Shown: positions 46,459-62,185 of the stretch, one piece after another
How positions within the stretch are numbered: position 1 is the first letter of the stretch
Layout: the number at the start of each line of letters is the position of its first letter
From: Micrococcales bacterium 31B
GTDB taxonomy: Bacteria; Actinomycetota; Actinomycetes; Actinomycetales; Dermabacteraceae
DNA: 64,000 nucleotides
Direction of reading: 5' to 3'
NCBI GenBank assembly: GCA_022803075.1
Contig: JAFFTF010000002.1
Location: 350,090 to 414,089 of the forward strand
Program-made: the position numbers and the translations under genes
Notes under the pieces: model-generated
Databases searched by the model: none
The model's input: only the letters and a program-made list of their open reading frames with translations
What the model was told of the DNA's origin: nothing

Positions 46459-47246
46459 TTAGTTCATGGGTCGGGTTCCTTTCCCGCTTTGGGCTTGCAT
46501 GAGCCTGATGGATTCGCCGCTGGTTTGGCAGAGGTGTGCGTGGTGCAGGAGTCGGTCTACGGTTGCGGTGGCAATTGTTTTGGGCATGAGTTCATCGAAT
46601 CCTGAGGGGTGAATGTTTGAGCTGATTGCTAATGATCGCTTCTCGTAGGAGGCTTCTACGACGCGGTAGAAGCCCTCGGCTGCGTCGGTGGAGACGGGTA
46701 ACAGGCCTATGTCATCGATGCAGATGAGATCTACGTTGGTAGCGCGGGTAATGGCTTTGTTGACACTGTCGTCGATTCGGTGTCGGCGTACGAGGGCACC
46801 GAGGTCTTCCATGCTCAGCCAGGACACCGACATGCCCTGATCGATGGCTTGTTGGCCTAGGGCTTCTAGGAGCAGGGTCTTACCGGTGCCGGAGGGCCCG
46901 CAGGCGATCAGGTTCTCCCGCCGCCGCACCCACTCCAGGGTCCGTAGGAATGACGTGGTTGCTGGTGGAAGGGTGGACAGTGCTTCGTCCAGACGTCGAA
47001 GGTTTTCCCCGTGGGGAATCCGGCGCGTTTGCGTCGAGTGGCTAGCATCGACTGGTTGCGGCCGGTCGCTTCGGCTTCGAGCAGGACACGAACAACTTCG
47101 GTAGGGTCCCAACGTTGGGCTTTCGCGGTGGCCAGAACCTCGGTGACGACAGCACGGGCGTGCGGCATCCTCGTGGTGCGCATCAGGGCGATCACGTTTT
47201 CCACTGCCGCGTCAGGCCGTGGCGGGCTCAGGGTGTTAGCGTTCAT
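46459..47246 (-). pseudogene. istB: IS21 helper ATPase IstB, one-base frameshift
   Basis: The N-terminal part (ATG 47246, MNANTLSPPRPDAAVENVIA ... RAGFPTGKTFDVW) and the C-terminal part (DEALSTLPPATTSFL, Walker A ACGPSGTGKTLLLEALG, Walker B LICIDDIGLLP) are in different frames. Comparison with the usual IstB text, TFDVW-DEA, shows that one base is missing in the C-run at 46989-46990. Otherwise the gene is full length. This could be a real inactivating deletion or a sequencing error in a homopolymer. The start overlaps the end of istA. Confidence 0.88.
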
Positions 47247-48785
47247 CGAGGGTTCCTTCACTGTTTTCATTACGGGTGGGTGTTACGGGTGTGGTGCCGA
47301 AGGTGGCCCAACTGCTGGTGCCTTGGCTTAGCCATTGGTCCTGGTCGGTGACGGTGTGGGTGGCGTCGGTGGCCTGGCCTGGCCTGCCGGTGGTGACGAT
47401 GGAGAGCAGGTCAGCGTGGGTGAAGCGTTGATGCACGGCCGCTGCGCCTAAGCCCTTGTCGACTTCGGTGGTGCCTAAGACCTTGGCGAGGGTGACGGCG
47501 CGTTCCATTTTGTGTCGGATCTTTTGTGTCCCGGCGGCAGCGGCTTCCTTCAGCCAGAGCGCTGCGCCGGCCCCGAGGGCTAGGAATTCTGTCTCCGCCT
47601 GGTTGGTCGGTCGGATCACTCGTTCCAGGGCACCAGCAGGGGCTGGTGGGAAGTGGCTCTCGATGATCGCGGGCGTGCCGGGGCGGGTGCGGTGGTGGCG
47701 GGCAACCTCGACCGGGCCCGCGTCATCGACGTGGACGATGACGACCTCGGTGTCGGTGGCGCGGACCCAAACCATGGCCCCCATGAGGGTGTGCGGCACG
47801 GAGTAACGACACTTTTCGAAGGTGACCATGGGTGTGTTCGGTGGGACCTGCCGGGTGTGGCCGAAACTTGCCGTGACGGGGGTTGCGGGAACCGCATGCA
47901 GTCGGGGTCGTTCAAGCACGCGGAGCATGTCGCGGGGGATTTCCAGCGTAGCCCGGTGCACCCGTGAGTTCACTTCGTCCATAAACACCTGGCAGGCCGC
48001 TTCCAACTCGGTGAAAGACCCATAAACGGGCGCAAGGTTCGTATCCTGCGGGACTAAGTCGGCTTTGGCGATTTTGACCGCGTTCTCTACCCCGCCCTTG
48101 GACGCGGGGTCAGCCGGTAGGCAGGTCTGCAGTGAGGTTGAGTAGTACCTCGCGAACGCGACAATCTGAGGGTTTCGCACTGGGATGCCGGCAACGTGTT
48201 CGACCGTGACGGTCTTTTCGTTATCGGTCAAAATGTAAGTGGGAACCCCGCCGATCAGGCGAAACGACCGGTCCAGGCAGCGAACACGCTCGGCAGGGTC
48301 TTGTCCCGCAACGGGAGCACGATACGAAACCGTGAGAACGCCAGCCAGGCGACGAACAGTACCGTCTTCTTGCCGTCTACGACGGGCCCGTCACCGTAGT
48401 CATACTGAAGCCACAGGCCTGGCTCCGCGGTCCACGGGCGGTGCACGCGGACATTGCGGGCCCGATAGGTGGCCTTCAGTTCCGCCAGAACATACCGTGT
48501 GGTCCGTTCACACCCGGTGTACCCCAAGGCGAGGAGCTTCTCATGCACGACGTCGCCGCGGATCTTCCCACGGGACTGCTCCACCCAGTCGGTTATCAGA
48601 GGCAGGAACGGATCGGTAATCCGGCCACGGCGACGCGCCAGGGGCGACTGCGCGCCTTCCTGACGGGCCTTCACGTAAGAGCGCACCGTGTTGTGTGATA
48701 CACCGCAGATTTTCGCGGCGTCCCGGTACGACCGGGTTAAATCGTAAGCAGCTAAAATTTCCATGAACTCTCCTGGAGACTTCAC
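47236..48785 (-). pseudogene. istA: IS21 transposase IstA, one-base frameshift
   Basis: The start is probably GTG 48785 (VKSPGEFMEILAAYDLTRSY), after AAGGAAGGGG. The HTH region (AAKICGVSHNTVRSYVKARQ) and the first part of the DDE core (WLQYDYGDGPVVDGKKTVLFVAWLAFSRF, key words QYDYGDGP) are in one frame. The rest (YILTDNEKTVTVEHVAG, SKGGVENAVKIAKADLVP with the catalytic Glu, and the C-terminal domain) is in another. One base appears lost at 48276-48277 (GCCTGGAC where GCCCTGGAC is expected). Without it the catalytic triad cannot be assembled. Confidence 0.88.
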
Positions 48786-49038
48786 AACAAGCCCCTTCCT
48801 TCCCTTCGACGGGTGAAAAAACGATTGGCATCGCCATTTCACCGCGGAAGGAAGGGGCTCTCCCCGTAACGAACGAGGGAATGGACAAGGGCATCCCCAG
48901 CACGCAAGACCATCCATGATGGCCACCCGATGTTCAAAAATGCTTGCCGCCACTGGTCAAAACCACTGCCGTGAACGGTCAGTCAGATTTTCCGCCCCCG
49001 GTCAGTTTAAAGTTGCCGCTAACAGTCGGGTCAAACGG

Positions 49039-52000
49039 GGGTCATCCCCGAGGGCGGGGAACAAACTTCGTGTCTGCTACGCCAGGCGAAAAGTACCGGG
49101 GGTCATCCCCGAGGGCGGGGAACAAACCTGTGCCTGCGAAGTGCTGCGCGTAGCGTCGCAGGGTCATCCCCGAGGGCGGGGAACAAACCTCAGTATGGCA
49201 GATAGTCCGTTGCAGAGTCCACGGGTCATCCCCGAGGGCGGGGAACAAACGACTCGGGCACCGGTCGTCCGGTTAGCGGTCTCGGGTCATCCCCGAGGGC
49301 GGGGAACAAACGCATTCGCGCGCCATCTTCAACGGCCAGGGCGAGGGTCATCCCCGAGGGCGGGGAACAAACCGCCTCTCGGTATCCGGTGACCCGTAGG
49401 GAGGGGGGTCATCCCCGAGGGCGGGGAACAAACGTCCAGCGAGGGCAGCGCCCTCTCCCAGGGGAGGGGTCATCCCCGAGGGCGGGGAACAAACGCCACG
49501 GGCGGAGACGAGACCCTTAACGTGGTGGGGTCATCCCCGAGGGCGGGGAACAAACTCATGGGGCCATGCAGGCCAGCGCAAGCCTCACGGGTCATCCCCG
49601 AGGGCGGGGAACAAACGTGGTCGTCCGTGGCCGCCTGTACGGCATCGAGGGGTCATCCCCGAGGGCGGGGAACAAACGGGGCGCACCAGCCACCCGAGGC
49701 CACGAGGGAGGGGTCATCCCCGAGGGCGGGGAACAAACGCTAAGTACCTCGTTGGTATGTCCGTCCCGCCGGGGTCATCCCCGAGGGCGGGGAACAAACC
49801 CCATGTGAAGGCCCAGTCAGTCATGGTGTGTCGGGTCATCCCCGAGGGCGGGGAACAAACGTCCACTCTGTTTGTGCGTAGATTTTGCGTGTGGGGTCAT
49901 CCCCGAGGGCGGGGAACAAACTCCCGAGCCGCCCTGTATCAAGCACGCTCCGACGGGTCATCCCCGAGGGCGGGGAACAAACCACCCGGGTTAATCTCAT
50001 GGTGGCACGATTACGGGGTCATCCCCGAGGGCGGGGAACAAACAGATATTTGAGGCCAGGGCCTTAATATTCCCGAGGGTCATCCCCGAGGGCGGGGAAC
50101 AAACAAGGTACTCGCCGCAAAGCGTTCCGGCTTCGCGGGGTCATCCCCGAGGGCGGGGAACAAACGGGATCGTCACGTCGATAGAGTGTGGCGGTGGCGG
50201 GTCATCCCCGAGGGCGGGGAACAAACGCGATCTTGTCGTGACCGGGCCAGGTGGCGTGCGGGTCATCCCCGAGGGCGGGGAACAAACCCGGAATTGAAAT
50301 CGGGCAAAACGTGCAAGCCGGGGTCATCCCCGAGGGCGGGGAACAAACTCGGCAACGTCAACTACGGGTTGCTCACCGAAGGGGTCATCCCCGAGGGCGG
50401 GGAACAAACATCGGCGCGGGCGATGATGACCTGGTGCGTCAGGGGTCATCCCCGAGGGCGGGGAACAAACACCGAACAACACCTACAAGCCGCGAAAGAA
50501 GACGGGTCATCCCCGAGGGCGGGGAACAAACCGTAGGCGACGGTTGCCCCGTGCAACTTCCCCAGGGTCATCCCCGAGGGCGGGGAACAAACACCGTTAT
50601 AATTTTGTTATGGCCGATTACCCTCGGGTCATCCCCGAGGGCGGGGAACAAACCCGTGAGTCACAGAACATCACACAGAAATTGTGGGGTCATCCCCGAG
50701 GGCGGGGAACAAACTTCGAGTTTGCTGGTGAGGCCGTTAGCGGCGGCGGGGTCATCCCCGAGGGCGGGGAACAAACCACGACGTTGCGGGGTACGTCTTT
50801 GCGGACAGCGGGTCATCCCCGAGGGCGGGGAACAAACCATTGTCCGCTGGTGTGGAAATGGCAACGGGTCGGGTCATCCCCGAGGGCGGGGAACAAACGA
50901 GGTGCCCATATTTCGCACCTTACTCAGCACGGGGTCATCCCCGAGGGCGGGGAACAAACGATGGTCTCGTGCGTGTGTGTCATTCTGTGGCCGGGTCATC
51001 CCCGAGGGCGGGGAACAAGCTTGGTTTGCGCGCTATACGCAGTAGGCGAAACCGGGTCATCCCCGAGGGCGGGGAACAAACAAGATTACGGTAATGTTAC
51101 GCCGCAATCCCTTGGGGTCATCCCCGAGGGCGGGGAACAAACTCCATGCCGAGGCTGACCCATTTGACGCCGGAAGGGTCATCCCCGAGGGCGGGGAACA
51201 AACGAGAAGTGAGCACGCCTGACCTCGAAGCCGTAAGGGTCATCCCCGAGGGCGGGGAACAAACCTCATCGCCTAGCCGAGCGACCTCCCGCTGCAGGGG
51301 TCATCCCCGAGGGCGGGGAACAAACTTAGCCCGGGTGCAGAGTATCCAACAACGAATAGGGTCATCCCCGAGGGCGGGGAACAAACTCGAAGGCTGGTAA
51401 CCAAATGATTAATATTTGGGGGTCATCCCCGAGGGCGGGGAACAAACCGGCCAGACTCCATTACGGCGCTCGATGACCTGGGGTCATCCCCGAGGGCGGG
51501 GAACAAACGTAAAACTGTGCGGCTGAACTGTGAATCTCGTGAGGGTCATCCCCGAGGGCGGGGAACAAACGACGGTGAGGCGCGTGGCTGGTGCGACGAG
51601 TGCGGGTCATCCCCGAGGGCGGGGAACAAACGAAGCGTTAGTGTCGTTGGGGCGGCCGGCTTCAGGGTCATCCCCGAGGGCGGGGAACAAACAACATATC
51701 ACGCTTATCTGAATTGCCACGCTGAGGGTCATCCCCGAGGGCGGGGAACAAACTAATAATTAGGGTGTGTGGCTACGGTTGCATAGGGGTCATCCCCGAG
51801 GGCGGGGAACAAACCTCTAGCACCTGCCGGCATCGGTTTGTGTCGCCGGGTCATCCCCGAGGGCGGGGAACAAACTGTGATTTCGAGTTCTTCGATCAGG
51901 TTGTGCAGGGGTCATCCCCGAGGGCGGGGAACAAACTCGATGGGGATGATCGGATCGTTCGAACCAGCCGGGTCATCCCCGAGGGCGGGGAACAAACGAG

Positions 52001-52546
52001 TGGACCTGCGAGGGCAACACTCTGCGTATGGGGTCATCCCCGAGGGCGGGGAACAAACGATGGAGCGGCAAATCTCCCTGTTCCTCGACAAGGGTCATCC
52101 CCGAGGGCGGGGAACAAACGCCGTGTTTCTCCTTTGCGCGATCAAAGGCGCGGGGTCATCCCCGAGGGCGGGGAACAAACGTTGACGGGTCGGCGGCGAA
52201 GGTCAATCAGGTGGGGTCATCCCCGAGGGCGGGGAACAAACTTGTGCATGGTTTCCACTACTTCCAAGGTGGTGGGGTCATCCCCGAGGGCGGGGAACAA
52301 ACGCGGTCCCAGACTTCGTTGAATCGATCATTGCCGGGTCATCCCCGAGGGCGGGGAACAAACGTGTGCGGTGCGACACCGGTCTCAAAATCGGCGGGGT
52401 CATCCCCGAGGGCGGGGAACAAACCCTCGTGCGGTGTCTGCCAAGCCGTTCCGCCACGGGTCATCCCCGAGGGCGGGGAACAAACGGTGTCGCGAATATT
52501 GACAACATTTTGAACGGGGGGTCATCCCCGAGGGCGGGGAACAAAC
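49039..52546 (-). CRISPR. Type I-E CRISPR array, 58 repeats and 57 spacers
   Basis: I counted 58 copies of a 28-bp repeat (plus strand starts GGGTCATCCCCGAGGGCGGG), spaced 61 bp apart and 62 bp at three places (starting 49161, 50687, 51481). Spacers are 33-34 nt and all look different. Read on the minus strand the repeat starts GTTTGTTCCCCG, has a CCCCG-CCCT-CGGGG stem and ends ATGACCC, the type I-E form in which Cas6e leaves an 8-nt 5' handle. The array runs away from cas2, so transcription is minus and new spacers enter at 52546. All repeats seen are identical except that at 50993, which ends AACAAGC. Confidence 0.99.
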
Positions 52547-52612: not shown

Positions 52613-52966
52613 TCAACCTGAGAACTTGCGCGCCTGTCGATACCTCCGAGCGTTCGAGACCGAGTGGCTTGGCCTACGCAGCGGCGCGGCCGACGGTCCC
52701 GGCCGTAACATCAGCGTCAACCCGTCAAGATCGACGGGGGTCCAGTCGTGTCCAGCCACGATGAAGTCGTAACCTTGTTCGCTGCGACTTGAGTAGACCA
52801 TCATGGCGCGGCCTCGTCCTAGCATCTCTAGCACCGTGGACCAGAGATTCTCTCGAACGCGCTTGGGCACGCGGCCCACGTAAACTCCCGCGGCGATTTC
52901 GGTCAACCACCTCGTCGCGTGCCCGCGCAATCCGTCTGGTGCTTTGGTGAGTACAAGCACTATCAC
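52613..52966 (-). CDS. cas2: CRISPR adaptation endonuclease Cas2 (type I-E)
   Basis: 117 aa with the I-E-specific Cas2 pattern: MIVLVLTKAPDGLRGHATRW, EIAAGVYVGRVPKRVRENLW and a C-terminal tail that packs on Cas1. With Cas1 it captures and integrates new spacers. Its ATG overlaps the end of cas1. The last gene of the operon, directly beside the leader. Confidence 0.96.
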   Translation of the reverse strand: MIVLVLTKAPDGLRGHATRWLTEIAAGVYVGRVPKRVRENLWSTVLEMLGRGRAMMVYSSRSEQGYDFIVAGHDWTPVDLDGLTLMLRPGPSAAPLRRPSHSVSNARRYRQARKFSG

Positions 52967-53916
52967 CAGTCAGCCTCTCCGTTCGCGTAGTTCGTGCCGC
53001 CGGCCGCCAACCGATCAGCGCCGTCCCAGAGGTACAACACGTCCGCATTATATGACTCGTCAACCTCGACATCACCAACCAGTAATTGTTTAATGTCGGC
53101 TACACATCGCCCAATGAGTCCGCCCTTGTGTATCTGATCTCTTACGCCGATTCGTGCGCGGCGACCAATGGGTGCAGCGGCATCCGTCTCTGCCGCCAAG
53201 CGAAACGCCAGCGGGATAGTCACCTCGGCCTTATAGAGATCCGCAATGTCATATACGAAAGAACGGTAATGCCCCGTGTGCACAAATCCCAAGCCTGGAG
53301 CGCACCCCAACGCGACAATCGCCGCGTGCACGACACCATAAAGAGCAGAGTTGGCGGCCGAGAGTGCCTGATTTACGGGTGAACCACTGTCGAATGCCTC
53401 TGCGTCGTAATCTCTGCCCGACCACTCGACTCCAGTGAGCCGGGCCTGCTCACGGTAAATTCTCCGGACGCGCGCTCCCTCCTTTCCGCGCAACTGCTGC
53501 ATGGAAAGAGTCGAGGTTTCTTCACCGGGAAATCGCATTTCATACATTGCCCTCGCCACCGCGAGGCGATCTCGCTGATTCGAGACACGAGCCGCCTGGC
53601 ACTCCAAAAGGCGCGTGGATCGAGCAAGTGAACTGCCGTGAGCGTAGTAACGCACGCCCTCCTCCCCAACCCAAATTGCCGTGGCACCGCTCTCGGCGAT
53701 GATCGTCATGGCCTGGTGGGTGACCGTGGTGCCTGGACCCAGCAAGATCGCACCGAGATTGGCAACAGGGACATGAATGGTGCCGCGTTCGTCGGTGACC
53801 GTCAGAGCGTTGGAGTCACGCGAAATACGGCTGCGCTCCACATACACAAAGCTCAAGCGATCACCCGCCCGCACCAAATCACGAGGTGCGGGCGGGCGAG
53901 CCCCAGGAATTGTCAT
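52963..53916 (-). CDS. cas1: CRISPR adaptation integrase Cas1 (type I-E)
   Basis: 317 aa. The N-terminal beta domain (DRLSFVYVERSRISRDSNAL) is followed by the helical catalytic domain with the metal ligands expected in QQLRGKEGARVRRIY (Glu), GLGFVHTGHYRSFVYDIADLYK (His and Asp). ATG 53916 overlaps the cas6e stop (ATGA), so the longer frame to 53958 is not used. Intact, so the system should be able to adapt. Confidence 0.97.
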   Translation of the reverse strand: MTIPGARPPAPRDLVRAGDRLSFVYVERSRISRDSNALTVTDERGTIHVPVANLGAILLGPGTTVTHQAMTIIAESGATAIWVGEEGVRYYAHGSSLARSTRLLECQAARVSNQRDRLAVARAMYEMRFPGEETSTLSMQQLRGKEGARVRRIYREQARLTGVEWSGRDYDAEAFDSGSPVNQALSAANSALYGVVHAAIVALGCAPGLGFVHTGHYRSFVYDIADLYKAEVTIPLAFRLAAETDAAAPIGRRARIGVRDQIHKGGLIGRCVADIKQLLVGDVEVDESYNADVLYLWDGADRLAAGGTNYANGEADW

Positions 53917-54626
53917 GCGGAGTCCGAGTTGATCTGAGCAAGTGTCACGAGCCCACATCCGTAGGCCCGTTCACGGCCAATTCCTCCGACGAGGGTGCGA
54001 CGCGCCAACTCCGGTTGATCGATACGAACTACTCCCTCAAAGGAAGCCTTCACAATCGTCACCTTTTGCCCCTTCGCGTCTGTGTTTCGCGTGAATGACT
54101 GCCGCTCAGCACCCATGTGCTTGATAATCGGCATGTCTGGAAAGTCCGGTGAATTCAACACACTCATTCCATTCTTACTGAGCAGATGAATCAACCATTC
54201 CTGCTGATGATGCACAGTGAGCAAGGGAACCCGGGCCTTGTGTTCCGGGCGTCCACCCTTTTGAGATCTGTCTTCGATAACCTGGCGCACTGGGTTAACC
54301 GTGGTGCGAAAGGCCCAAGGTTGACCGGGCTCAAGATTGTCTAACAGCGGGGCATAAGACTTGGTCAGCCATTCGCGCTTGGTCGGCCAACCAACCTGCT
54401 CACAGATATGCGTGAAGTCGGGCGCGTGCGGGCTAACGACATACAGCAGCGGGGTCGATGCCCCTCTACGCGTGTCGAGTCGCCAAAGAATACGTCCCTC
54501 ACCCGCGTAATCGTGTTCCGAGTTCGTGAACGAGGCCATGACGGCGGCGTGAATCACCTGCGATGACGAAAGAAATCGCCTCGACTCACGACGCGCCGGA
54601 TTGAGTTCAATGCGTGATAAATACAT
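53913..54626 (-). CDS. cas6e: crRNA-processing endoribonuclease Cas6e
   Basis: 237 aa. Cas6e/CasE landmarks: N-terminal MYLSRIELNPARRESRRFL, the catalytic-region His in SSQVIHAAVM (about residue 26), and the C-terminal Gly-rich loop LVGGIGRERAYGCGLVTLA. It cuts the repeat RNA at the base of the CCCCG stem and remains bound. The same stem is kept in both degenerate repeats at 62097-62185. Confidence 0.96.
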   Translation of the reverse strand: MYLSRIELNPARRESRRFLSSSQVIHAAVMASFTNSEHDYAGEGRILWRLDTRRGASTPLLYVVSPHAPDFTHICEQVGWPTKREWLTKSYAPLLDNLEPGQPWAFRTTVNPVRQVIEDRSQKGGRPEHKARVPLLTVHHQQEWLIHLLSKNGMSVLNSPDFPDMPIIKHMGAERQSFTRNTDAKGQKVTIVKASFEGVVRIDQPELARRTLVGGIGRERAYGCGLVTLAQINSDSA

Positions 54627-54638
54627 TGCGACCTCCTT

Positions 54639-55388
54639 CTAAAGCGATGACATGGGATCGTGACCGCCGTTTGGCCCGCCCGCGGTGGACTCGTGAGAAT
54701 CAGATACCTGCGGCTGCACGAGGGCGTCATTAGTGACCTCCACGTACTCTTCAGCCACGGCACGCGCCCGATACCGCCGGTGCTCCATGTTGAATGACAA
54801 CGGAAAGTCATCAAGCACCCGCGTTGGGCCATGAATGCCGAGGACATCAGCATCTGCCTGAACGCGCAGTTCAACGTGTGGCCGAGCGCGGTAACGCCAA
54901 AGGTTCTTATGCCAAGTGCTGGCCCGCCACGGCTCGCTGCGCGCCGCCTCCATTGCGCCACCTTGCTGTGCCCGTAAAAGCACGGGAGCGGACGGTGCGA
55001 ATGCGCGGCGGCCAAGATACAACGGGAACGTCGGTCGTATGAGCGCCTCAGAGAGGCCTTCAATCAGTTCGTCGTTCTCGCTTTCGACATAAGCGGTGAA
55101 CCGCGCATCGGCAAGGTAAAAGCGGTCGGTCAAAGGCATCGACTTTCCGTCGCGATTGATTGCGGTTTGAAAGTCCCTCTCTAAACGGCCTCTCTGCTCT
55201 TCCCTCACCGCGAGACGAATGCCCGTGAGTTCCTCGATGGGGTCACTTCGACGCATGCCCTTGGCGGCAGCGAGTAGTCCGATAATGCCCGACTTCGTAG
55301 GCATCTCCTCTGTCTCCCGTCGCGTAAATCGACTGCGGGAACCCCATGACTGCATGGGTCCCGCTAGCAGCAGTATGAGCGTTTTCAT
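54639..55388 (-). CDS. cas5e: Cascade subunit Cas5e
   Basis: 249 aa. The N terminus MKTLILLLAGPMQSWGSRSRF and the following PTKSGIIGLLAAAKGM are the defining Cas5e (CasD) motifs. It caps the 5' handle of the crRNA in Cascade. It lies 3 bp downstream of cas7e and 12 bp before cas6e. Confidence 0.96.
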   Translation of the reverse strand: MKTLILLLAGPMQSWGSRSRFTRRETEEMPTKSGIIGLLAAAKGMRRSDPIEELTGIRLAVREEQRGRLERDFQTAINRDGKSMPLTDRFYLADARFTAYVESENDELIEGLSEALIRPTFPLYLGRRAFAPSAPVLLRAQQGGAMEAARSEPWRASTWHKNLWRYRARPHVELRVQADADVLGIHGPTRVLDDFPLSFNMEHRRYRARAVAEEYVEVTNDALVQPQVSDSHESTAGGPNGGHDPMSSL

Positions 55389-55391
55389 GAA

Positions 55392-56513
55392 CTAGTTTCC
55401 GTTCACAACCGCTGCGGCGACCGTCGAACCCAGGTCTTTCAAGGTGACAACTTCACCCAACGCCGTGAAGTCCTCGCCGACGTCGACAGTCCGTGCAACG
55501 AAATTCTTGACTGCGGGCACCCCATAAAGTTGGGTGATGCCGTTGGCCTCCTTGACGAGTGCCGCAAGCGCTGGCTTCATATAGCCATGGCCGCGGCTGA
55601 CCACGGCGTCCTCGAATGCGTTGACGTAGTTGATGGGCTGATCGTCACGCAGAGAAACCAGCACCGCTGCGGGGAGAGTACGATTGCCGAACGTATTTTG
55701 CTTTCCCGTGGGCATGCTTTGAGTGAATGCCGCGATGAACGCATCGATACACTCAGACACAGCCGTCTCATCACCCAGGTTTGCTTTCAGTGCGTCGACG
55801 TTAATTGTCGCGTAGCGATACAGTGTGCTCGACGCGTACTCCACGACACCGATCATGTCAGCGCCCGCATTGTTTTCTTTTTCGCGGTCGTCTACTGCGG
55901 TGTAATAGTCACCCTCGGCCTGCACCTCATGCACACTCAGCGCATGCGCCACCTGGCAAGCTGCGTCGACGTTGATATCTGGCGAGTCGGCGACCATGCG
56001 TCCAAAGAGTGCGATGTCAAAGGAATGACCCAGATTCATGACACTCTTGATTTTTCGCGCCTTCAGTTCTGCGGTCACGTCGGACGCTCCGGCGGCCGCG
56101 ATCGCTGCATCGGCGAGTTTCTCTATTTGCAGAGCAGAGAGAAAGAACAGAGCCCCGGACTTAGCCATAGTCTGATCGCTCTCGCCACCTTTGGGCTTCT
56201 TCTTGTCCACCTTCACCCCCATGGCCGCGAAGGCAGACTCGGCCAGTCGCTCCGCACTATCGCTGAGATCTGGATTTTTGGCCTGAATGGCGTGCGCGAC
56301 CGCCTCTACGACGTGGAGGGTGCGGTGACCTACACGCGAGGCGTCAAGGTGGGTTTTGAAGTGATCTCGTGTCGCTTTCTTCCAGGACTGGCTGGACACT
56401 CGGTGACGCAACTTTCCGCCAAAGATTGCGGACTTTGGGGCGCCGGTGTCGTCGCGATTGATGTTGCTTGGGGGCACCGATTGCAGGGCGTGGATGTCGA
56501 TGTAAAGGGTCAT
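55392..56513 (-). CDS. cas7e: Cascade backbone subunit Cas7e
   Basis: 373 aa. Starts MTLYIDIHALQSVPPSNINRDDTG and GKLRHRVSSQSWKKATRDHF (key words SSQSWKKA), then ALSVHEVQAEGDYYTAVDD, matching CasC/Cse4. Six copies coat the crRNA spacer in the complex. Because the Cas7 thumb flips out every sixth base, mismatches at those positions are tolerated, which matters for the pseudo-spacer match at the cas promoter. Confidence 0.96.
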   Translation of the reverse strand: MTLYIDIHALQSVPPSNINRDDTGAPKSAIFGGKLRHRVSSQSWKKATRDHFKTHLDASRVGHRTLHVVEAVAHAIQAKNPDLSDSAERLAESAFAAMGVKVDKKKPKGGESDQTMAKSGALFFLSALQIEKLADAAIAAAGASDVTAELKARKIKSVMNLGHSFDIALFGRMVADSPDINVDAACQVAHALSVHEVQAEGDYYTAVDDREKENNAGADMIGVVEYASSTLYRYATINVDALKANLGDETAVSECIDAFIAAFTQSMPTGKQNTFGNRTLPAAVLVSLRDDQPINYVNAFEDAVVSRGHGYMKPALAALVKEANGITQLYGVPAVKNFVARTVDVGEDFTALGEVVTLKDLGSTVAAAVVNGN

Positions 56514-56527
56514 GATGCTCTCCTTAA

Positions 56528-57166
56528 TTAGTTGGATTCTGACGTTCCGTCAGCGGTGGTGGACTCGGCCGATGGCGTTCGATTGAAGTCGCGCGTCCAA
56601 CGCAGTGCGACGACTTTGGCACCGTCTTCGAACTGCATCGAATAGAGGTCCTTGGTGAGTTGTCCGTAGTCGAACGCAACTTCGGCAGCGCGGAGTCGCT
56701 GAATGAGCCCACGCAGGTGTACGCCCATAATCTCCGGCGTTCGGGTGCGAGTGATGCGCTCGAATGCCTTCCATGCTGAGGTCTCATATGCAGTCTTTGA
56801 ACTATCTCCACCCCGGTCTCGGTCGGCGAGGATCCGCACGGCGGTGCCGAAGTTAAGGCCATCGACATGCATCGAACTATTGCGCGACTGCTGATGCGCT
56901 CCGTAACACGTGAGGGCCAAGTGGACCGCATACTCAGCCACGGTAGGTTCGTCACCCGCGACAGATTCTTGTGGAAAATTGGCGAGAGTCACAGACAGCG
57001 AGTCAAACGATGAACTTAGTGGCTTGCCTAGCGCGCGCCGCAGTTTAGCCAGCTCGCTTCGTGCCGTGGAAGACAATTCACCGGACGCACCCGGCGATAG
57101 AGTCTTGATGCGGTGCACCACATGATTGGCCGCTTGTTGCGCCGAGGCATAACTTGATCCGTTCAT
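56528..57166 (-). CDS. cse2: Cascade small subunit Cse2 (CasB)
   Basis: 212 aa, mainly helical. Typical Cse2 wording: LSSTARSELAKLRRALGKPL, YAVHLALTCYGAHQQSRNSSMHVDGLNFG and AVRILADRDRGGDSSKTAYETSAWKAFERI (key words QSRNSSMH). Dimer in the belly of Cascade that stabilises the R-loop. Its ATG overlaps the cas8e stop (ATGA). Confidence 0.94.
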   Translation of the reverse strand: MNGSSYASAQQAANHVVHRIKTLSPGASGELSSTARSELAKLRRALGKPLSSSFDSLSVTLANFPQESVAGDEPTVAEYAVHLALTCYGAHQQSRNSSMHVDGLNFGTAVRILADRDRGGDSSKTAYETSAWKAFERITRTRTPEIMGVHLRGLIQRLRAAEVAFDYGQLTKDLYSMQFEDGAKVVALRWTRDFNRTPSAESTTADGTSESN

Positions 57167-58881
57167 GCCATTGCTCCTTTCTTGGGATGATTCGGAGCCA
57201 TCTCGGGCTCGGTTATCTTTTTGACTGAAAAGTCCAAATACCGCTGAGCGATGGCGCAGTTGACGTATTCGGTATCGGAGACCTTTCGGCCGCTAATCTC
57301 TGTCGCAGTGGCCCGATATATACGGTCATCACGAAGCGTCGTCATAACGACTTTCGCTTCACCACGCCACTTTTTAAGTGCTTCTTTGGCGTGCACCGCT
57401 TGCTGCTCTGCATTACCTTGTGGGTCAAGGTCAGCTAACCAACGTCGCATTGGCGCGTCGAACGCCCGCATCGCCTCAAACAAGGCGTTGGTGCGTACAC
57501 CTTCCATGAGACTGTCTGTTTTGGCGACAGCGGCGAGCAGCAGATTTTGCTCGAATCTCGCATACGCAAATGCGAGGTCGCGGGTGTCCTGCACCGCCAC
57601 TCGCAACATGTCTCCAAAGATCACGCTCCCGCTTTCCAGCATCGAGAGCCGCAGGTCAACCTCGTCGAACTTGATTTCGGCTACTGTTGCGCTCTGGGGC
57701 CCATATTCCATTCCCACTGCGGTCACATTCAGTTGGCGGTGACGTCCAATCTCTGGCGAGACTTCACCCATCCACCGCAGCACAGCGGGAGCGAGACGCG
57801 CTTGTACATTCTTTTTCTCAACCAGCACGTGCTGTTGAGACGGAAGAATCGAAGTGATGCTTCGCCAAAACGCTTCCCCCAAGTTGTGCTCGAGTGGCAT
57901 ATAGACGTCGGCCTGATAGCGTTTAGATTGAGGCTCGGAGTACCGCCACCCTGACATTGGTTCGGCCGTGTGGCCGTTCTGGGGCGTCCGTTTGTCGCCT
58001 TGGCTCAGAATCACGCCGGTAATGCGGCCGTCGCTCGCGACGAGTCGCACCCTTCGCGAGAGCCAGGTATAAAGTGCGACCGCACCGCCGCGACATTCAC
58101 GCGAGGGTGCCTGGTCGGGTTCTGCAAGTGAAAAGTCATCTCTCAGACTCGAAACCCCCTCCCGGCTGAATCCCAGCGCGTGTTCGTCAAAGTCCTCGTC
58201 CTGCATAGGCTGAAGTTGGAGGTTTTTGGACTCGTTTCCCGTTAGTGGCACAAGATTCAAGATCAGCGTCTCGCGCAGGTTGCGCCCATTGACGAAGACT
58301 CCGCCGAGATAGCCAGACCAGGCCTGCCCGATCGGATAGCCTTTACCTCCTTTAGCTAGGGGGTCGCCGACCGCCGCCGACTTGATGCCCGAAGGGTCAA
58401 AGGCGTGACAATGCACCAGCCACCGGGCGGCCTCCGCGTAACTCAGCGAGGCCAGTGATTCGCCTGACCGGGTGAATTGAAACTGGAATCCGTTGGGAAC
58501 GTCAGCGATCAGCCGCTCTAAAGTTGCGATCTCGCCATTTGTGGAGTGCAGGTTGGCTACCTGCATAAACGGTCTCTCGAGGTCCAGCAAGTCGGTGTAC
58601 GCTGCCAATCCCTTAAGGTCTTCATCGAATTCCGCCGAATGGAAGCCATGGGTCCACAGATCCAGCCAGTGCTCCCGACCTTGAGGTCCGCGAACTGCGT
58701 AGTGCACGATGGCCAGCAAGAGCCTGAGTTCCGCAAAACTTTGAGTGGGTAGTTCCTCCGTAATGGCACGGATTTCTTCACTCCGCTGCAACGCGTCACC
58801 GATAGAGACTTCGCCAGTCGTGCCGTCCAGCCATGTGACTGTTATCCACGGCTCATGCATCAGATTGAATGAGTCATTCAC
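57163..58881 (-). CDS. cas8e: Cascade large subunit Cas8e (Cse1, CasA)
   Basis: 572 aa. N-terminal FNLMHEPWITVTWLDGTTGEVSIGDALQRS and the ELPTQSFAELRLLLAIVHYAV helix are standard Cse1. The middle has YPIGQAWSGYLGGVFVNGRNLRETLILNLVP (key words VNGRNLRETL) and the C-terminal four-helix bundle. It recognises the PAM and recruits Cas3. The ATG overlaps the cas3 stop. Confidence 0.95.
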   Translation of the reverse strand: MNDSFNLMHEPWITVTWLDGTTGEVSIGDALQRSEEIRAITEELPTQSFAELRLLLAIVHYAVRGPQGREHWLDLWTHGFHSAEFDEDLKGLAAYTDLLDLERPFMQVANLHSTNGEIATLERLIADVPNGFQFQFTRSGESLASLSYAEAARWLVHCHAFDPSGIKSAAVGDPLAKGGKGYPIGQAWSGYLGGVFVNGRNLRETLILNLVPLTGNESKNLQLQPMQDEDFDEHALGFSREGVSSLRDDFSLAEPDQAPSRECRGGAVALYTWLSRRVRLVASDGRITGVILSQGDKRTPQNGHTAEPMSGWRYSEPQSKRYQADVYMPLEHNLGEAFWRSITSILPSQQHVLVEKKNVQARLAPAVLRWMGEVSPEIGRHRQLNVTAVGMEYGPQSATVAEIKFDEVDLRLSMLESGSVIFGDMLRVAVQDTRDLAFAYARFEQNLLLAAVAKTDSLMEGVRTNALFEAMRAFDAPMRRWLADLDPQGNAEQQAVHAKEALKKWRGEAKVVMTTLRDDRIYRATATEISGRKVSDTEYVNCAIAQRYLDFSVKKITEPEMAPNHPKKGAMA

Positions 58882-61800
58882 GCGGCAACCTCCTTGTTTT
58901 TACTCGTAAGTTCACAGGAGAGTCCTTTCTCTCGGGAATACCGCAACACTGCAGTTCCCAGGATGGGAGTTGTGATGGTGGATTCAAAAGTCGCGCTGTG
59001 GTGCTCGACTTGCTTCATGGTCAGAAAGAGTTCTCCCTGAAGCAGCTGGTGCCGACGCCAGACTGAGCACGCGCGTGTGGCACCTTTTTCGAGAACGTCG
59101 ATCACCTCATCGATGACATTTTCGGTACACAACGCGTGATGCAGGCGAATGCTCCACGAAGCGATTCGTCGAGCCTGCGAGTCAGACAGTTCATCGCTCC
59201 AATTTGGGGCCGAGGACCATGGGCTGCCAGGATCCAAGATGGCGGTGCCTTCGGGATCCAGGAGGCACAGAATCACCTCAATAGAATCCTGGCTCTGACG
59301 CACCCTTCCGCCCAAGGCGGACCCTGGCGCGTCCGGATCAGTCCCAGTATTTTTTTTCAGGAGACCCTTGAGGTTGGTTTGGCTGCCGTCACCGAAGTAA
59401 CTCAGTGTGTATTCGTCAGCCTCTCGCTTCGATGCGAGTCTGCGCCCGTCGTAACGCGCACGACTTTCGCTGAGTTCTGACGAGTCCTCGGGATCGTAAG
59501 CGGCCGCGATCAAGTCGGCGATGTCGCCCGGGAGGTTGATGCGGCGGTCCGAAGCGTCTAGGGCAAGAAAGGTGCGCCGCAGTTGATACTGCGAATACAC
59601 CTTTTCGGACCCTGGATCAAAGCGTGGCATCCCCTGATTGGATAGTTTCCGTACCAGCACGGTGCAGCGAGGCACTTGCAACGACTTTGGACGTTGAGTA
59701 CGTGGGCGGGGACCGTGACGATGAAGTCGACCGATGCGCTGCAGTAGTGCGTCCATGGGCGCTATGTCTGAATACAGCACATCAAAGTCGACGTCAAGTG
59801 ACTGCTCAGCTACTTGGGTGGCCACTACGACGCGGCGCGCAGCGTGCGGCGGGCGAATGAATGCGCCGAAACCGGCATCTTTACCGAAGGTGCGCACCAG
59901 GTTTTCATCGTTTTCCAACCGGTGGCAGGCCATGAATCGAGAGTGATTCAGAGTGACAGTGTATGCCCCACATTGACGCAGATGGTCGTATAGATTTTGC
60001 GCGCCGCTCACTGTATTGCGGATAACGAGCGCGCAGCCGCCATCACGCAAATCATCGGCCAAAGCTTTGGCGATGGTATCGAAATCGTCTTCCATGAATT
60101 GCAGTTCAACAGTAGGGCCCTGCTCGTCGACATTTACAGACGCACCCTCGACCGCGCCCGTGGCCGATACGAAACTTACCTGTGGATACTGGGTACCCAA
60201 CGCATCTGAGAATTGGTGCTCCTGTTCACGAACTATCTGCCGCACAGCATTGGAGAGGTCCGCCCTTTTGGGTCGTTCGCCTCGCTCGCGCGCCTCTGCC
60301 TCCAATGCCACGCGAATTGCCCTCGAATCACGCGCGGGCCCCTTGACCGTTGAATATGCGAGTGCGAGGTCGCGGCGCACAGGCTCCGGCAGGGTGGCAC
60401 TAAGCAGGATGACTGGGGTCTCCGAAGCACCCAAGATCACCAGCGCCGACTTCAAGAATTCGAGCATGTATGGGTCCGCACAATGAACCTCGTCGATTAT
60501 CACCACTTGCCCCGAGAAAGCCAGATGCCGCAACATGACATGCTTCGACCGCAGGCCCGCAAACAAGATCTGATCGATGGTACAAACGTTGACGTTCGCC
60601 AGAACTCGCTTTTTTCGTCCACGAAGCCATTCATGCGTCATCGCGCTTGGCCTCGCCTCGACGTCATCGTCGTAGACCTCCGACTCCTCAACAGTTCGTG
60701 CGAGACCGCTGAAGGCCGGCTCGCTGTAGGTTTGCTCGGCAAGGCCTGCAAACGATGCGTTGAGTAGTGCCTTAGAATGGATCAGACTGAGCGTGGTCGG
60801 TTCGCTGGTGACGACTTCGAGCCACGCCATAATTCGGGACAGCATCGCGTTCGTAGTCGCCATCGTGGGGAGGGCAAAAGTTACCCCGCTAGCACCGATC
60901 TCGTTAGCCAGGGCATGCGCCGCAGTGAGGGCACATTCGGTCTTTCCCATGCCCATAGGTGCTTCAACCACGTAAAGCCCAGCGCCTCGCCGCGACACGA
61001 GGTCAAAAACTTGGGCCTGCAAGGCGTTTGGTGCAAACCCAAACGTCGTTTCGTATGCTTGCCGGGAATCTCGCTCAGGCGCAATCGACTGCCACGGCCC
61101 TGGCAGTCCCAATCGGTGCCAGGCGTCGCGGGCACGTCTAGTCGTATCGCGTATGAAATCATGCGGATCGACGTCGGTCGACATGTAGGGAAACAATGAC
61201 TCGTCGCTGGCAATCCAGTCGACCATGATGACTAGCCCCGTTAGGACCATGAGGCTCGGCATGCTGGTATCGAGACGCGTGAGTGCGGAATCTTCAAACC
61301 GCTCCCCCACCAGCGCCTCACACCACGCAAAGAATTCGCTACGTACCTCATCCCATTGTGGCTGAAGGCCGGCATTTACCGAGGGGTCGAGCGTCCCTCC
61401 ACTACCATGGCTGTAGCCGTGATGCGCCCCGAGAATTGAAGCTACGGCTGCCGACACGCTTGGTTGCACGCCTCGCTCGTTGAGTGCCTCCTCGACGAAC
61501 AATTGGCTAGCCAAACTATGGTGAAGTTGCCGTCGTAAATCTGTATCAATGTGCTCCGGCACCTTCAAGCCAGCCTCGGTCATACGGTCCGCCAGGTGTG
61601 GCACCATCACCGCAAAACCGGCGGTGATCTTGCCGAGGTCATGCGCGGCCGCCAACAACTTCAGTGCCACTCGAGCCTCCTCCGGAGTGCACTGCATTGA
61701 AGCCAGGAGTAGATTGCGGATGCGCTCGCCCGCCCACCTGTCGAAGACAAGAGACGCCACTGCAGCGCTATCCGCTGCGTGCTGCACAAGAGGTAGCCAT

Positions 61801-61883
61801 TTGTTCGAGTCGGCGCGGTCGGACTTTGCCCAGACGCTCGCAAGCTTTGGTGAAAAACCTGGGTACCGCCCACTAAAGTCCAT
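58878..61883 (-). CDS. cas3: CRISPR nuclease-helicase Cas3 (HD + DExH)
   Basis: About 1001 aa. The HD nuclease domain has VQHAADSAAV and LLAAAHDLGKI; the helicase has Walker A VVEAPMGMGKTECAL, DEVH box VVIIDEVHCADPYM, motif III LLSATLP and motif VI LLQRIGRLHRHG. It degrades DNA marked by Cascade. I prefer ATG 61883 (MDFSGRYPGFSPKLASVWAKSD), which matches family N termini. GTG 61955 is also possible and would give a nearly leaderless mRNA, since the -10 box ends at 61964. First gene of an eight-gene operon. Confidence 0.95.
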   Translation of the reverse strand: MDFSGRYPGFSPKLASVWAKSDRADSNKWLPLVQHAADSAAVASLVFDRWAGERIRNLLLASMQCTPEEARVALKLLAAAHDLGKITAGFAVMVPHLADRMTEAGLKVPEHIDTDLRRQLHHSLASQLFVEEALNERGVQPSVSAAVASILGAHHGYSHGSGGTLDPSVNAGLQPQWDEVRSEFFAWCEALVGERFEDSALTRLDTSMPSLMVLTGLVIMVDWIASDESLFPYMSTDVDPHDFIRDTTRRARDAWHRLGLPGPWQSIAPERDSRQAYETTFGFAPNALQAQVFDLVSRRGAGLYVVEAPMGMGKTECALTAAHALANEIGASGVTFALPTMATTNAMLSRIMAWLEVVTSEPTTLSLIHSKALLNASFAGLAEQTYSEPAFSGLARTVEESEVYDDDVEARPSAMTHEWLRGRKKRVLANVNVCTIDQILFAGLRSKHVMLRHLAFSGQVVIIDEVHCADPYMLEFLKSALVILGASETPVILLSATLPEPVRRDLALAYSTVKGPARDSRAIRVALEAEARERGERPKRADLSNAVRQIVREQEHQFSDALGTQYPQVSFVSATGAVEGASVNVDEQGPTVELQFMEDDFDTIAKALADDLRDGGCALVIRNTVSGAQNLYDHLRQCGAYTVTLNHSRFMACHRLENDENLVRTFGKDAGFGAFIRPPHAARRVVVATQVAEQSLDVDFDVLYSDIAPMDALLQRIGRLHRHGPRPRTQRPKSLQVPRCTVLVRKLSNQGMPRFDPGSEKVYSQYQLRRTFLALDASDRRINLPGDIADLIAAAYDPEDSSELSESRARYDGRRLASKREADEYTLSYFGDGSQTNLKGLLKKNTGTDPDAPGSALGGRVRQSQDSIEVILCLLDPEGTAILDPGSPWSSAPNWSDELSDSQARRIASWSIRLHHALCTENVIDEVIDVLEKGATRACSVWRRHQLLQGELFLTMKQVEHHSATFESTITTPILGTAVLRYSREKGLSCELTSKNKEVAA

Positions 61884-61963
61884 GACAACCGCCTTTGCCT
61901 CGGCGCCTTCATGTTGCCCCTTCGCACCATGGAGTCGCCCGTGAGATTTCCTCACGTACGACG

Positions 61964-62030
61964 ACCCTAGCCGAGCAAGTAGCTAAACGTAAACATTTAA
62001 TTTTTGACAAGAACTTAAAAGTTCGAACTT
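61964..62030 (-). promoter_or_regulatory. cas operon promoter with a pseudo-spacer target and overlapping palindromes
   Basis: Minus strand: a -35-like TTTACG (61993-61988) and an actinobacterial -10 TAGGGT (61969-61964), 18 bp apart; TTGTCA (62010-62005) with TTTAGC (61987-61982) is an alternative pair. Upstream lies AAG (62030-62028) followed by TTCGAACTTTTAAG, matching the pseudo-spacer at 62125-62157. AAGTTC half-sites form overlapping palindromes at 62011-62024 and 62019-62030. Confidence 0.7.
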
Positions 62031-62054
62031 ATTTTTATGGCAGACTTGGTTCGA

Positions 62055-62067
62055 GGTGAGACTCACC
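62055..62067. promoter_or_regulatory. Perfect 6-1-6 inverted repeat between the pseudo-CRISPR unit and the cas promoter
   Basis: GGTGAG A CTCACC. It could be a protein operator or a small RNA hairpin. No T-run follows on either strand. Confidence 0.5.
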
Positions 62068-62096
62068 GATGCGTGCCAATGGGGTCGAAAATACAT

Positions 62097-62185
62097 CGGC
62101 AATCCCCGCGGTCGGGGAACCTGTTGACGTGACTGACACAAGCCTAAAAGCTCGAACGGGTCATCCCCGAGCGCGGGGAACATGC
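62097..62185 (-). ncRNA. Degenerate single-spacer CRISPR unit, probable Cas-regulating crRNA-like RNA (CreR-like)
   Basis: Two 28-bp degenerate repeats (62158-62185 and 62097-62124) enclose a 33-bp pseudo-spacer (62125-62157), the same spacing and direction as the main array. On the minus strand the first repeat keeps CCCCG-CGCT-CGGGG and the handle ATGACCC exactly. The second keeps CCCCG-ACCG-CGGGG but has lost the handle, which is not needed at the 3' end. The pseudo-spacer starts GTTCGAGCTTTTAGG; the cas3 promoter region has GTTCGAACTTTTAAG. Ungapped identity is 19 of the first 24 and 21 of all 33 positions, with an AAG PAM at the target. Transcript and function are inferred. Confidence 0.8.

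Follow-up and report, generated by a model that had tools for sequence, protein, structure and literature searches.

CreRs mediate autorepression in CRISPR-Cas types I-B, I-E and V-A (Liu 2023, as reported in PMC13131331). In type I-B, the seeds of CreA pair at nucleotides 1-5 and 7-11 (PMC8501985); in the numbering used here, in which the PAM-derived base is position 1, these are positions 2-6 and 8-12. Engineered type I-B systems with spacers of ~24-26 nt or less repress without cutting despite an active Cas3 (PMC10989794, PMC10551041). Here we describe a mini-CRISPR upstream of cas3 in the window, i.e., the whole 64,000-nt stretch of Micrococcales bacterium 31B DNA that was analysed. Very probably, this unit is an autorepressor of CreR type that acts on the operon of eight cas genes. 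Since CreR has already been published, including for type I-E, the unit would belong to a known class.

The window contains a complete type I-E set, with 8/8 cas genes in one near-gapless operon at its right end (overlaps or gaps ≤14 nt; Table 1). The cognate effector and Cas6 are thus intact in this genome. The main CRISPR array follows the cas2e end of the operon, and an IS21-family transposase gene (47236-48953) adjoins the array trailer end.

Two degenerate copies of the array repeat (GTTTGTTCCCCGCCCTCGGGGATGACCC, the reference for the identities in Table 1) were found upstream of cas3 and off the main array. They are 61 nt apart, the same as the array units, and are the only pair with array spacing outside the array; isolated repeat-like windows of 18-19/28 also turn up elsewhere by chance. 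Each stem, folded alone, gave the fold of the array stem. Folding and sequence thus bore out the first-pass annotation, which had claimed two degenerate repeats at array spacing, intact Cas6 stems and an exact leading handle. Its RNA coordinates (62158-62097) were wrong; because Cas6e cuts at the stem base, the expected RNA is 62164-62104. This RNA is predicted to consist of a 7-nt handle, the 33-nt guide and a 21-nt 3′ hairpin part. A canonical I-E CRISPR array was also considered for the unit and was ruled out by the repeat identities (25/28 and 19/28) and the 21/33 target match.

Table 1. Features of the type I-E locus and of the mini-CRISPR upstream of cas3 (positions in the window)
Feature	Position	Strand	Remarks
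main CRISPR array	49039..52546	-	58 repeats, 57 spacers (54 of 33 nt, 3 of 34 nt)
cas2e	52613..52966	-	TIGR01873
cas1e	52963..53958	-	TIGR03638
cas6e	53913..54626	-	TIGR01907
cas5e	54639..55388	-	TIGR01868
cas7e	55392..56513	-	TIGR01869
cas11/cse2	56528..57166	-	TIGR02548
cas8e/cse1	57163..58881	-	TIGR02547
cas3	58878..61955	-	TIGR01587, TIGR01596; start maybe GTG at 61955 or ATG near 61881
AT-rich island, putative promoter region	61986..62041	.	75% AT; upstream of cas3
target (protospacer) upstream of cas3	61996..62028	-	21/33 identity; guide positions 1-6, 8-13 matched
overlapping second site	62021..62053	+	AA-flanked, 9/10 core positions
PAM, AA on minus strand	62029..62030	-	adjoins target; AA recurs at 20 loci
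degenerate repeat 2 (trailing)	62097..62124	-	19/28 identity to array repeat; stem intact, handle now ATTGCCG
predicted mature crRNA-like RNA, 61 nt	62104..62164	-	predicted from the I-E Cas6e cut
pseudo-spacer (guide), 33 nt	62125..62157	-	sequence GTTCGAGCTTTTAGGCTTGTGTCAGTCACGTCA; 61-nt repeat-to-repeat spacing
degenerate repeat 1 (leading)	62158..62185	-	25/28 identity to array repeat; stem and handle ATGACCC intact

The guide and its target aligned without gaps and were identical at positions 1-6, 8-13, 15, 17, 20-24, 28 and 33 (21/33 overall; 12 of the first 13), so that every statement of the earlier alignment proved exact. Both strands of the local region were searched for the best match, and first-order Markov shuffles gave the chance of such a match as 3e-4 for the first 13 nt, 5e-5 for the first 24 nt and 1e-3 for all 33 nt. 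GTTCGANCTTTTA occurred without mismatch exactly twice in the whole 3.93-Mb genome, in the guide and in the target only. The first-pass annotation had called the target a promoter. The target lies in an island of 75% AT upstream of cas3, and a scan for sigma-70-type promoters gave none above threshold; the promoter is therefore putative.

The AAG PAM proposed earlier was correct in its AA part and over-specific in its fixed third base. The targets of the 20 guides described below share only AA and vary at the next base, and the first base of the array spacers in this genome is C (28), G (18) or T (11) and never A (0; n = 57), a bias at the PAM-derived position. AAG is thus one case of AA followed by a loose third base. 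AA preceded 1 of 3 protospacers matched by array spacers in phage records, and phage data alone would not settle the PAM. The match in Streptomyces phage ToastyFinz (29/33) has AA before the protospacer; those in Microbacterium phage Hendrix (29/33) and Pseudanabaena phage Pam4 (30/33) have no AA. Array spacer matches (nos. 10 and 47, counted from the leader end) fall in major capsid genes.

The target contains a perfect 12-bp palindrome, AAGTTCGAACTT (62021-62030), through which the guide could in principle address both strands. The overlapping second site on the plus strand exists because of this palindrome and may be incidental to it.

A search of genome contigs with the Cas3 N-terminus revealed no relative, and no close-identity copy of the operon was present in the same-family genomes searched. 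The best Cas3 N-terminal matches were ~40% identical, and the genus was represented by one genome in the collection searched. The mechanism was therefore tested at other actinobacterial I-E loci. Set 1 consisted of the regions upstream of cas3 in actinobacterial I-E systems, 166 after removal of redundancy; every I-E-repeat-like hairpin was taken, giving 1469 candidate guides, mostly ordinary array spacers. Set 2 comprised 76 loci from named organisms, fetched with Cas1. Under the strict rule, guide positions 2-6 and 8-12 all had to match within 600-700 nt upstream of cas3 (600 nt in set 1) and outside repeats. As a control, each guide was given the promoter of a random other locus in ten rounds per set, which kept real base composition and mixed clades.

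In set 1, there were 21 strict matches, 15 of them after AA; the tenfold swapped controls gave 32 matches, none after AA. Set 2 gave 13 matches, 6 after AA (one being the reverse complement of another), vs. 25 and none for the swapped controls. Both sets together contained 20 loci with an AA-preceded strict match, this window included, vs. 57 swapped matches, none of which followed AA (Fisher test for the combined AA excess, 1e-11). Because the list includes related loci (L085/L163, L128/L129), slightly fewer than 20 of these cases are independent. Besides this window (L009), the AA loci include a Microbacterium MAG (L190), Aeromicrobium camelliae (L198), Specibacter cremeus (L215), two Actinomycetales/Micrococcales MAGs (L225, L228) and genomes from several families. 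A 9/10 seed threshold was too loose for counting (AA 13 vs. CG 13 in set 1), and when repeats were left unmasked in a looser scan, array repeats matched one another and produced many false positives. The strict rule selected only 20 of ~240 surveyed loci, which were unevenly sampled; judging from these sequences, the mini-CRISPR unit is either a minority trait or more degenerate forms are missed by the rule.

If the unit is a CreR, unrelated I-E loci should have mini-CRISPRs of their own, with different guides that match the upstream regions of their own cas3 beside the same PAM. The finding of 20 such loci vs. none among swapped controls agrees with this prediction and supports the CreR autoregulation proposed in the first-pass annotation, in which repression itself is presumed. 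At some loci, L106 and L119 among them, the guide aims at a small ORF and not directly at cas3; thus, not all of the 20 loci are CreR proper. Two side observations concern single loci. Upstream of cas3 in L053, one guide has two tandem AA-flanked sites 22 nt apart (TAATGCATCTTA and TAATGCATCCTA). In L097 (6550-9464), two overlapping frames of 520 and 523 aa together make up cas3, reflecting a frameshift or an assembly error.

Every sixth guide nucleotide in Cascade is flipped out and unpaired. With the PAM-derived base counted as position 1, the flipped-out positions are 7 and 13. Positions 2-6 and 8-12 match by test selection, and only the remaining positions are informative. Their match rates (n = 20; chance, 5/20) were 12/20 at position 1, 5/20 at 7, 7/20 at 13, 14/20 at 14, 14/20 at 15 and 9/20 at 16; beyond position 16, matches were approximately at chance level. 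The lack of constraint at 7 and 13, with their neighbours held, is, judging by these rates, the six-nucleotide rhythm of Cascade. Drift at these two positions is therefore evidence of selection that keeps the sequences as Cascade guides. The seed mismatch placed on a flipped-out position by the first-pass annotation is accordingly a family-wide pattern. In the related loci L085, L088, L163 and L170, the guide and target cores were unchanged, and the target changes fell at 7 and 13. The covariation test named in that annotation was run at other loci, and covariation was seen in the related pair L128 and L129: the guide base at position 11 and the corresponding target base are T/T in one locus and C/C in the other, and most surrounding sequence has diverged. 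The target in these two loci overlaps promoter hexamers (TTGACA-17-TAAACT/TAGCCT). The sequence evidence thus covers the anatomy, PAM, seed match, recurrence with its statistics, constraint pattern and covariation at related loci.

The guides fell into two sizes. Guides of 33 nt with distal mismatches were found in this window and in L019, L035, L053, L064, L110 and L198, and L225 has a guide of 32 nt. About half of the 20 guides are 20-22 nt long (guides of this size: L033, L085, L098, L106, L128, L129, L132, L163, L190, L215 and L228). No size between the short and the 32-33-nt guides was observed, and L119 was unsized. The arrays of genomes with short-form guides carry ordinary 33-nt spacers. 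The size difference of 12 nt equals two Cas7 footprints. The relatives may therefore have two ways to avoid cutting, namely 33-nt guides with distal mismatches or guides of 20-22 nt; by analogy with the engineered type I-B systems, the short guides would repress without cutting in type I-E.

At some loci (L033, L035, L060, L064, L098, L102, L106, L119 and L126), a small Shine-Dalgarno-led ORF encoding a hydrophobic peptide of 27-61 aa lies behind the AA-flanked target. From their sequences, these loci are candidates for type I-E addiction modules of the CreTA kind, the toxins being peptides. The small ORFs of L102 and L106 differ at 8 of 27 codons, all nonsynonymous, with no sign of coding constraint, and a Pfam search of the small peptides gave nothing convincing. 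A wider interpretation, to which we give somewhat less than an even chance, is that regulatory mini-CRISPRs with PAM AA form a broad class in actinobacterial I-E systems, have evolved there repeatedly and come in two discrete sizes, 33 nt and, shorter by two Cas7 footprints, 21 nt. With a short guide, Cascade would naturally have an altered stoichiometry, able to repress and unable to cut. Part of the class would guard short hydrophobic peptides (addiction), and the rest, including the unit in this window, would autorepress cas.

The unit could alternatively be the decayed remnant of an array, with a spacer that came accidentally from its own cas promoter, a self-targeting tolerated by mutation, and no remaining activity. 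The degeneracy of its repeats is in keeping with such decay, and self-targeting spacers are known in many genomes. However, an accident would not produce such a match at 20 loci, each time beside AA, with both stems and the first handle kept. Position-specific constraint within the first 15 nt, together with drift at 7 and 13 and with covariation, shows that pairing is maintained in the family. Decay is thus an improbable explanation. It is quite improbable that the unit is a CreTA-like addiction module, in which the guide would repress a toxin (a small RNA or a peptide) in the cas3 leader, instead of or besides the cas operon. Other surveyed loci do aim their guide at a small Shine-Dalgarno-led ORF between the mini-CRISPR and cas3, and a CreT toxin need not be encoded by an ORF and can be a small RNA (PMC8501985). 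In this window, however, the search for a small Shine-Dalgarno-led ORF between the target and cas3 revealed none, and the gap is only 40 nt (to GTG 61955) or ~115 nt (to the possible ATG near 61881).

The perfect palindrome in the target would also fit the idea that guide and target are operator copies of an ordinary DNA-binding regulator and that their CRISPR-like context is incidental. The guide copy (GTTCGAGCTTTT), however, is not palindromic and begins exactly at the repeat handle; the guide/target match extends past the palindrome; and at the other loci unrelated sequences appear in the same register with the same PAM. We consider this idea highly improbable.

For CreR-type autorepression, the preferred reading, we infer transcription, processing, Cascade loading, repression, absence of cutting and derepression as follows. 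The mini-CRISPR transcript would be cut by Cas6e into the 61-nt crRNA-like RNA, which would load into Cascade. The RNA would then pair with the site upstream of cas3 through positions 2-6 and 8-12 and some further pairs, next to the AA PAM, and the bound Cascade would block transcription of the eight-gene cas operon. Cas3 should not cut, because pairing beyond the seed is too poor for a full R-loop. Cascade would thus limit its own production, and repression should lift once Cascade is drawn off by ordinary crRNAs or by anti-CRISPR proteins.

The locus is a well-supported I-E case, and the literature surveyed, which for CreR consisted of reviews, names no such RNA for this lineage. Such units can be recognised from sequence, with no experiment, by a simple rule that combines a degenerate repeat, the handle, positions 2-6 and 8-12 and AA. 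Because positions 7 and 13 drift, natural variation alone reveals the base pairs that Cascade needs for regulatory binding, and the 21-nt size class provides natural templates for repression-only type I guides.

As presented in reviews, CreR (Liu et al. 2023, via PMC13131331, PMC12737573 and PMC12948488) is likewise a mini-CRISPR outside the array; its crRNA-like RNA is complementary to the cas promoter to a limited extent, it has no toxin gene, and it is reported for subtypes that include I-E. The known CreR is an autorepressor, whereas the unit here is known from sequence alone. CreA of CreTA (PMC8501985, PMC9458426) likewise lies next to the cas operon as a pseudo-spacer between two degenerate repeats, and its PAM-flanked target and its seed (nucleotides 1-5 and 7-11, i.e., 2-6 and 8-12 here) are further shared features. 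It differs in that it represses a toxin, whereas the target here immediately precedes cas3 and no small ORF separates the two; moreover, the CreA studied there is of type I-B with PAM TTC, and this unit is of type I-E with AA. CrePA (Shu et al. 2025, as described in PMC12737573) also uses a crRNA-like guide and Cascade to repress a neighbouring gene. According to that description, its target encodes a toxic protein in which a KilA-N domain is typical; between guide and cas3 here there is no gene of this kind. The lack of a Shine-Dalgarno-led small ORF from target to cas3, where a non-coding RNA toxin could yet be encoded, sets the unit apart from both CreTA and CrePA. The engineered short-spacer repression by native type I-B systems (PMC10989794, PMC10551041) is relevant to the 20-22-nt guides of the relatives; it is engineered and of type I-B, whereas the spacer of the unit here is a full 33 nt long and pairs poorly in its distal part. 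Relative to the CreR prior art, as judged from reviews, the present analysis adds three points: such units recur across actinobacteria, their drift at positions 7 and 13 can be read from sequence alone, and their guides come in two sizes.
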